In this document: positions 34,973 to 35,774 of the stretch, piece after piece | How the letters are laid out: the number at the start of each line of letters is the position of its first letter | How positions within the stretch are numbered: position 1 is the stretch's first letter | Source of the DNA: Xanthobacteraceae bacterium | GTDB lineage: Bacteria > Pseudomonadota > Alphaproteobacteria > Rhizobiales > Xanthobacteraceae | Assembly (NCBI GenBank): GCA_019635585.1 | Contig: JAHBZE010000001.1 | Span: 930,001 to 994,000 of the forward strand | Length of the DNA: 64,000 nucleotides | Direction of reading: 5' to 3' | The notes under the pieces: generated by a model | Database searches by the model: none | The model's input: the letters and a program-made list of their open reading frames with translations, nothing else | Told to the model about the DNA's origin: nothing | Program-made: the position numbers and the translations under genes

Positions 34973-35368
34973 ATGAATCGCAGGCAGTTCACGGCACTCG
35001 CGCTCGCCGCGCTTGCAACGCCCCTTTCGCTCGATCGCGCGAGCGCGGCCTTTGCCGACTACCAGGCCGAGAGCTTCGTGCGGCTGATTTCGAGCGGAAC
35101 GCCAGTGGTGGTCCATGTTCACGCCGACTGGTGCCCGGTATGCCGCGCACAGATTCCGGTAATGAATAAAGTGCTCGCGCAGCCCGCCTACAAAAACGTT
35201 CGCGCGGTGCGCGTGAACTTCGACACAGAGCGGAAGTTTCTCGCCGACTACAAGGTCGTGCGGCAATCGACCATCCTGATCTTCAAAGGCGGCAAGGAAA
35301 TCGCCCGCCTCTCCTACGACACCGACCCGGCCCGTATCGAGCAGACGCTCGCACGCGCCATTTCATAA
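34973..35368 (+). CDS. Exported thioredoxin-like protein with CPVC active site
   Basis: 131 residues. The N-terminus NRRQF plus a hydrophobic stretch and ASA resembles a Tat or Sec signal peptide cleaved near residue 26. Thioredoxin fold with VHADWCPVCRAQ, Cys at 54 and 57. The usual cis-proline loop before the central strand reads QSTILIF, so proline is absent. It is the first gene of a thioredoxin/thioredoxin/CcdA operon: the next ATG is 13 bases after its stop. Probably a periplasmic thiol carrier fed by the CcdA-like transporter. Confidence 0.88.
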   Translation: MNRRQFTALALAALATPLSLDRASAAFADYQAESFVRLISSGTPVVVHVHADWCPVCRAQIPVMNKVLAQPAYKNVRAVRVNFDTERKFLADYKVVRQSTILIFKGGKEIARLSYDTDPARIEQTLARAIS

Positions 35369-35381
35369 CGGAGCAAAATCC

Positions 35382-35774
35382 ATGCGCCGGATCATCATCG
35401 CTTTCCTCACGCTCGCTATGACCACTTCGTTCGCCATGGCAGCCTTCGTGACGTTCGAGAAAACAAAATTCGATACGCTCGTGAAATCGAACGCTCCGGT
35501 CGTGGTCCACTCCCACGAATGGTGGTGACCCACCTGCCGCGCGCAGGCGAATGTCCTGGAAGGACTTCAGAAAGATCCGAAATTCTCGAAAGTGACTATG
35601 TTCCGCGCGAGCGCAAGCGACGAGCGGGAATTCCTCTCCTCGATCAAGGTGAGCTCGCGTAGCGTGATCGTGGTTTATGCAGGCGGCAAGGAGATTGGCC
35701 GCCTCAACTGGATAACAGACGCCGCGCAAATCCGCGCGTTGCTCGAACAAGCGGTAGCGCAGGCAGGCGAATGA
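35382..35774 (+). CDS. Exported thioredoxin-like protein with in-frame TGA at the first active-site Cys: candidate selenoprotein (U-P-T-C)
   Basis: 130 residues if TGA at 35526-35528 (codon 49) is read through. The ATG has GGAG nine bases upstream. Signal peptide at about residues 4-21. The translation before the TGA (VVVHSHEWW) and after it (PTCRAQANVLEG) aligns without a gap to the neighbour's VVVHVHADW-C-PVCRAQ, so the TGA stands exactly where the nucleophilic Cys belongs. The frame then runs open to a stop that overlaps the CcdA ATG (ATGA). A hairpin at 35549-35568 has SECIS-like form. Alternatives are a TGC-to-TGA nonsense mutation or a sequencing error. Selenocysteine genes (selA, selB, selC, selD) are not in the window. 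Confidence 0.6.
35549..35568 (+). promoter_or_regulatory. SECIS-like hairpin downstream of the in-frame TGA
   Basis: GAA (35549-35551) pairs with TTC (35566-35568). A single T at 35552 is bulged on the 5' side, then GTCCT (35553-35557) pairs with AGGAC (35561-35565), leaving loop GGA. The loop begins 29 bases after the TGA. An apical loop with guanines, a bulged U on the 5' side and this spacing are features described for bacterial SECIS elements bound by SelB. A smaller stem (35533-35537 with 35543-35547) lies closer to the TGA. Confidence 0.5.

Follow-up and report, generated by a model that had tools for sequence, protein, structure and literature searches.

A probable UxxC thioredoxin with an in-frame UGA at its first catalytic codon, encoded beside a ccdA-like gene in an alphaproteobacterium

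Within the 64,000-nt stretch of Xanthobacteraceae DNA analysed as a whole (the window), the gene trxU most probably encodes a UxxC thioredoxin with selenocysteine (Sec) at codon 49. We assign this reading a probability of roughly 0.9. An earlier note, made from the letters of the window, had proposed it, and the proposal is supported by the Sec machinery of the genome, the conservation of the TGA, purifying selection and a hairpin past the TGA. G000 denotes the genome holding the window, while other G numbers denote the relatives compared. The features are as follows.

34973..35368, plus strand: trx1, upstream thioredoxin paralogue with WCPVC and an N-terminal RRQF signal-like segment; dN/dS 0.084 vs G023
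35382..35774, plus strand: trxU, in-frame UGA in a thioredoxin-fold gene whose product would span M1-E130, with putative U49 (WUPTC)
35526..35528, plus strand: UGA codon 49, putative Sec, aligned with the first catalytic Cys of homologues
35549..35568, plus strand: SECIS-like hairpin with 3-bp lower stem, bulged U, 5-bp upper stem and GGA loop
35771..36484, plus strand: ccdA-like gene, DsbD/CcdA-type membrane electron transporter; Pfam DsbD_TM 37.2 bits, cut-off 27.1
L062 / G000:C1:205445-208477, minus strand: formate dehydrogenase alpha (fdh) with Sec UGA at codon 199 and an in-frame TAG at codon 141

The earlier note had described a ribosome-binding site, one TGA on the nucleophilic Cys and an intact downstream frame whose stop overlaps the ccdA start, and all three were found again. 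A Shine-Dalgarno-like GGAG lies about 10 nt ahead of the ATG at 35382. Codon 49 is the single in-frame TGA before the terminal stop and takes the position of the first Cys in the WCPVC motif of trx1. Past this codon, the frame is open until its own TGA (35772-35774), and the ATG of the ccdA-like gene (35771) overlaps this stop. With C put for U, the product matches Pfam Thioredoxin (PF00085) with 31.6 bits (cut-off 23.5); it stays below both NCBIfam thioredoxin equivalog cut-offs (35.6 vs 96.8 bits, 38.7 vs 125 bits). An AlphaFold2 model with Cys at 49, based on an 18-sequence alignment, has a mean pLDDT of 88.4 and a pTM of 0.79; in it, residue 49 follows strand 40-45 and precedes helix 50-63, as is usual for thioredoxins. 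Foldseek ranks thioredoxins first among its PDB matches (lowest E 1.2e-08), of which 375 have E up to 0.001. That is, Pfam, model and Foldseek agree on a thioredoxin fold with the Sec position at the first motif residue, ahead of the second helix. Among the homologues with a readable stretch (L083 has none), the first Cys of WCxxC aligns with the TGA of trxU; such an in-frame UGA at an otherwise conserved redox Cys is a mark of selenoproteins.

With regard to its location, the trxU product is probably exported and periplasmic, given an N-terminal signal peptide that was judged by eye. The ccdA-like gene adjoins the thioredoxin gene(s) in 7/7 genus loci compared, and trxU has the DsbD/CcdA-type neighbour that marks a CcdA-served periplasmic thioredoxin. 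The cis-Pro before the fourth strand was not found in trxU, where by eye a Ser stands (SSRSVIV) at what we take to be this position, judged against the canonical thioredoxin sequence. The paralogue trx1 likewise apparently has Ser there (RQSTILI, again by eye), and so do the Cys relatives. As far as the sequences tell, Ser at this position is a trait of the subfamily and no loss specific to trxU.

An orthologue of trxU is present in 6 of the 8 genus genomes. The catalytic codon is TGA in G000 and G023 and Cys (TGC or TGT) in G104, G063, G121 and G152, as the alignment of close homologues suggested by the earlier note reveals. Scattered disruptions in relatives, which that note had named as a sign against its proposal, were not observed, i.e., the TGA copy of G023 and the four Cys copies are otherwise open frames. 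G085 has trx1 and ccdA and no second thioredoxin, and no trxU match was found in G137 (72% complete). G023, a MAG labelled Xanthobacteraceae bacterium ACE_PRO33, represents another species of the genus; its trxU keeps the TGA, with 93% identity at the protein level. Its contig JAHBZB010000002.1 belongs to a separate assembly in which trxU shows 33 other differences. Our data being assemblies, a wrong base would be conceivable; a sequencing or assembly error at 35526-35528 is rejected because the second assembly carries the same TGA, and we consider its chance close to nil.

The comparison of G000 and G023 also bears on the question of whether trxU is decaying. Of its 390 nt, 33 differ, namely 7, 1 and 25 at codon positions 1, 2 and 3, respectively. 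Codons 1-48 show 8 synonymous and 6 nonsynonymous codon differences, and the 81 codons past the TGA (50-130) show 16 synonymous changes and 2 others. The resulting dN/dS of 0.083 (dN 0.027, dS 0.332) resembles that of both neighbours (trx1, see above; ccdA-like gene 0.046). Thus, there is purifying selection on both sides of the TGA, and given the ratio of 16 to 2 changes and the low dN/dS, the second half of the gene does not look dead. A UGA kept in relatives and followed by constrained sequence, as seen in selenoproteins, is here observed on G023 only. One could still suppose that codon 49 was hit by a nonsense mutation before the two species split and that the rest of the gene has drifted since, and the intact paralogue upstream could render such a loss tolerable. 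On the other hand, there is no indel, the operon overlap is kept, and the TGA sits on the only codon at which Sec would be chemically meaningful. We thus reject decay on the dN/dS and the pattern of change and regard it as very unlikely. The earlier argument that the TGA is more than a chance mutation holds, since it is kept despite the observed nucleotide differences.

To see how far TGA-bearing copies extend, larger sets of genomes are informative. The family search covered 198 genomes and matched 66 of them (E up to 1e-8). A TGA is reported in 21 match rows, all of which were read; it lies at the catalytic codon in 2 rows and, as terminal stop, at the match end in the other 19. The order search covered 397 genomes, of which 35 matched (E up to 1e-18); a TGA occurs in 7 rows, 6 times at the match end and once, in trxU of G000 itself, at the catalytic codon. 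A pattern search of genome contigs gave 22 stretches with 6 relatives, one being the G023 record, and no additional TGA copy. In viral contigs, 38 stretches matched a pattern, and none of them encodes a relative. A Pfam thioredoxin search of G000 has 4 matches, trxU not among them, and is hence uninformative on further TGA-bearing copies. At the catalytic codon, TGA was found in two close relatives only, G000 and G023. In an unrooted tree of trx1, trx2 and ccdA (G085 without trx2; inner nodes 70-99), these two are set apart from the other five with support 81. The simplest reading of these sequences would be that an ancestor shared by G000 and G023 switched from Cys to Sec, because all other relatives read have Cys. 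The sulfur-to-selenium switch in trxU looks recent.

The Sec apparatus that the earlier note had asked to look for is complete, so the absence that would have spoken against its proposal did not occur. The genome of G000 (3.2 Mb, 2 contigs, completeness 100) encodes selA (596.6 bits), selB (446.6) and selD (422.6), all above the curated cut-offs, as well as tRNA-Sec (80 bits, gathering 47), which ARAGORN also reports as tRNA-SeC with anticodon tca. With selA, selB, selC and selD, the full set typical of a selenoprotein producer is present. Compared to G023, for which selA stems from the family-wide search and selB and selD are known from aligned frames, dN/dS is 0.082 for selA, 0.062 for the selB-bearing frame and 0.064 for selD. 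The tRNA-Sec gene (L052 8555-8650) lies wholly nested in the selB open frame (L052:8516-10843, minus strand), a trait published for Alphaproteobacteria in the accessible part of PMC8124441. Among the 8 genus genomes, selA is present in G000, G023, G085 and G152, whereas the search for it gave no hit in G063, G104, G121 and G137. That is, both TGA genomes have selA and 3 of the 4 Cys genomes have none that was found. This co-occurrence lends the Sec reading mild support; taken alone it is weak, since selA is common in the family (above cut-off in 79/198 genomes).

The hairpin past the UGA reads GAA-U-GUCCU-GGA-AGGAC-UUC and covers nt 24-43 counted from the U of UGA; its loop begins 29 nt past UGA, and it is unchanged in G023. 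The hairpin of fdh from the same genome reads GG-U-GUCCA-GUU-UGGGC-CC with the loop 19 nt past UGA. According to a figure legend of PMC13188914, from which we took the layout, bacterial SECIS elements have a loop of 3-9 nt that starts 16-37 nt past UGA, an upper stem of 4-16 bp and a G in the first two loop positions. Both hairpins fit this layout, the one of trxU with a 3-nt GGA loop, 5 bp and 29 nt. We also assessed how often such elements follow TGA triplets in general. A loose element (4 bp or more, with a lower stem of 2 or more) is found after 53 of the 1494 TGA triplets of the window, and the strict form shared with fdh (bulged U, 5 bp, 3-nt G-first loop, lower stem of at least 2 bp) after 3/1494, trxU included. 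Without demand for a lower stem, the core follows 58/5188 TGA triplets of the window and 12 loci. The 14-nt pattern TGTCCWGNNWGGRC has 4 sites in the 3.2-Mb genome, its reversed control one. Two of these sites are those of fdh and trxU (16 and 26 nt after the TGA, respectively, in frame); for the remaining two, no TGA lies up to 45 nt upstream. Since TGTCCWGNNWGGRC was built from both elements, its match to them is circular, and the informative part is solely how rare it is at other places and how it is spaced from the TGA.

With respect to stability, the picture is less distinct. The 61-nt stretch past the UGA is not unusually stable compared to shuffles (z -0.54; 50/200 fold as well). The trxU element has -5.7 kcal/mol as bare 20 nt and -7.2 kcal/mol with short flanks (fdh: -6.3 and -7.8 kcal/mol), such that the flanked trxU form narrowly misses a published threshold of -7.5; a 45-nt stretch that comprises the trxU hairpin and a second one reaches -14.6 kcal/mol. 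The 56-nt unchanged run past the UGA is matched by 631 of 5000 codon shuffles, i.e., the nucleotide conservation of the hairpin is not significant alone. Rfam shows no family at gathering score on the window, which was to be expected, as to our knowledge there is no general bacterial SECIS model that would fit. Within the genus, the hairpin is absent in G063, G121 and G152, while the Cys gene of G104 (L024; no selA found) has it past WCPTC, where a single C-to-T change leaves a G-U pair. The hairpin of G104 could predate the switch, be left over from former Sec use, or simply reflect conservation of the protein. Because G104 has nearly the same hairpin, the protein sequence alone may account for much of the hairpin in trxU.

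These observations also leave some room for a UGA that is read otherwise, i.e., by near-cognate read-through or re-initiation with a low-level product, given the unremarkable stability of the hairpin and its partial presence in a Cys species in which selA was not detected. Yet the full Sec apparatus exists, and read-through as Trp, Arg or Cys would be odd to keep at the nucleophile. Re-initiation would lose the active site, since the first in-frame start codons past UGA-49 are codons 71 and 73. We hence consider a non-Sec reading improbable and retain Sec insertion at codon 49 as the preferred explanation.

As to fdh, where G000 has the TAG at codon 141, G023, G085 and G152 encode Lys, and G000 has Thr and Leu where the others carry Cys 172 and Trp 230. 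Between G000 and G023, 239 fdh codons differ, 182 of them synonymously and 57 not (TAG included), such that the gene otherwise looks constrained; the fdh of G152 is one codon longer, and its change counts, obtained in an ungapped comparison that loses register towards the end, were left out. Codons 197-229 of fdh, i.e., 33 codons around and past its UGA, show no nucleotide change between G000 and G023, a run longer than the hairpin needs. The fdh of G000 may be freshly interrupted, or the TAG is an assembly fault. Taken at face value, the TAG would leave trxU as the only intact selenoprotein gene found in G000. A more speculative scenario, which we deem rather unlikely, is that Sec was captured recently by the exported thioredoxin because a SECIS-like hairpin already lay past the Cys codon. 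It draws on the Cys gene of G104, with almost the same hairpin. With fdh, the usual keeper of the Sec machinery in the class, interrupted by TAG, trxU may then be the only intact selenoprotein gene found and the reason why the machinery was kept.

For the preferred reading, i.e., a UxxC thioredoxin with Sec at codon 49, we envisage the following course. The switch from Cys would have happened in an ancestor of the two sister species that already held the Sec machinery for formate dehydrogenase. SelB carrying Sec-tRNA-Sec would bind the hairpin and insert Sec at UGA-49, and the N-terminal signal would direct the protein to the periplasm. There, the U49/C52 pair would exchange electrons with substrate disulfides (or oxidants) and would be re-reduced by the CcdA-type membrane protein encoded alongside, next to the Cys paralogue trx1. 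As a nucleophile in thiol chemistry, the Sec would be the faster one. Annotation will mark trxU as broken or split it. If real, the gene extends UxxC thioredoxins to an alphaproteobacterial, probably periplasmic and CcdA-linked setting. Furthermore, with sister species that have Sec, have Cys or lack the gene, the genus provides a small, dated set for tracing how a Sec codon and its SECIS are gained and for examining what advantage Sec brings to an exported thioredoxin.

The available part of PMC1794560 counts, for 2006, three selenoproteins of one family (formate dehydrogenase only) in the Alphaproteobacteria whose genomes had been sequenced by then; there, no Cys-to-Sec event is given for thioredoxin, and the thioredoxin selenoproteins named come from Deltaproteobacteria, Clostridia and a spirochaete. 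Having more than one selenoprotein is no longer unique in an alphaproteobacterium, because three selenoprotein genes, which the accessible text does not name, were counted in Afipia carboxidovorans in 2025 (PMC12013277). Among the literature matches listed, as far as their text is accessible, there is no report of a CcdA-linked or alphaproteobacterial thioredoxin selenoprotein.

UxxC selenoproteins of the Trx family (PF00085) are listed as experimentally verified in the accessible parts of PMC13188914 and PMC9312934. trxU shares with them the fold, the (putative) Sec at the first CxxC residue and a hairpin after the UGA, and differs by its N-terminal signal, its CcdA-type partner gene and its alphaproteobacterial host. 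Excerpts of PMC1088965 and PMC2398784 report Trx-like and thiol:disulfide interchange UxxC selenoproteins from marine metagenomes. Compared by description only, these resemble trxU in being thiol oxidoreductases of the thioredoxin fold that carry UxxC and have numerous Cys homologues, while most belong to COG/Pfam groups other than PF00085 and their hosts are unassigned. In Alphaproteobacteria, an fdoG-type formate dehydrogenase alpha selenoprotein with a selA-selB-selC cluster is described in the portions at hand of PMC1794560 and PMC8124441. The fdh of G000 shares with trxU the genome, SelB and a very similar hairpin core (bulged U, G-first three-base loop), whereas it is an unrelated molybdoenzyme and has its loop at 19 instead of 29 nt past UGA. 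Periplasmic Cys thioredoxins served by CcdA/DsbD are exemplified by TlpA and CcmG. Like these, trxU encodes a (predicted) exported thioredoxin beside a DsbD_TM-type gene; unlike these, it would have Sec for the nucleophilic Cys. UxxC thioredoxins as such are thus already known, and what is of interest here is the alphaproteobacterial host, the probable export, the CcdA-type partner and the apparently recent switch from Cys to Sec.
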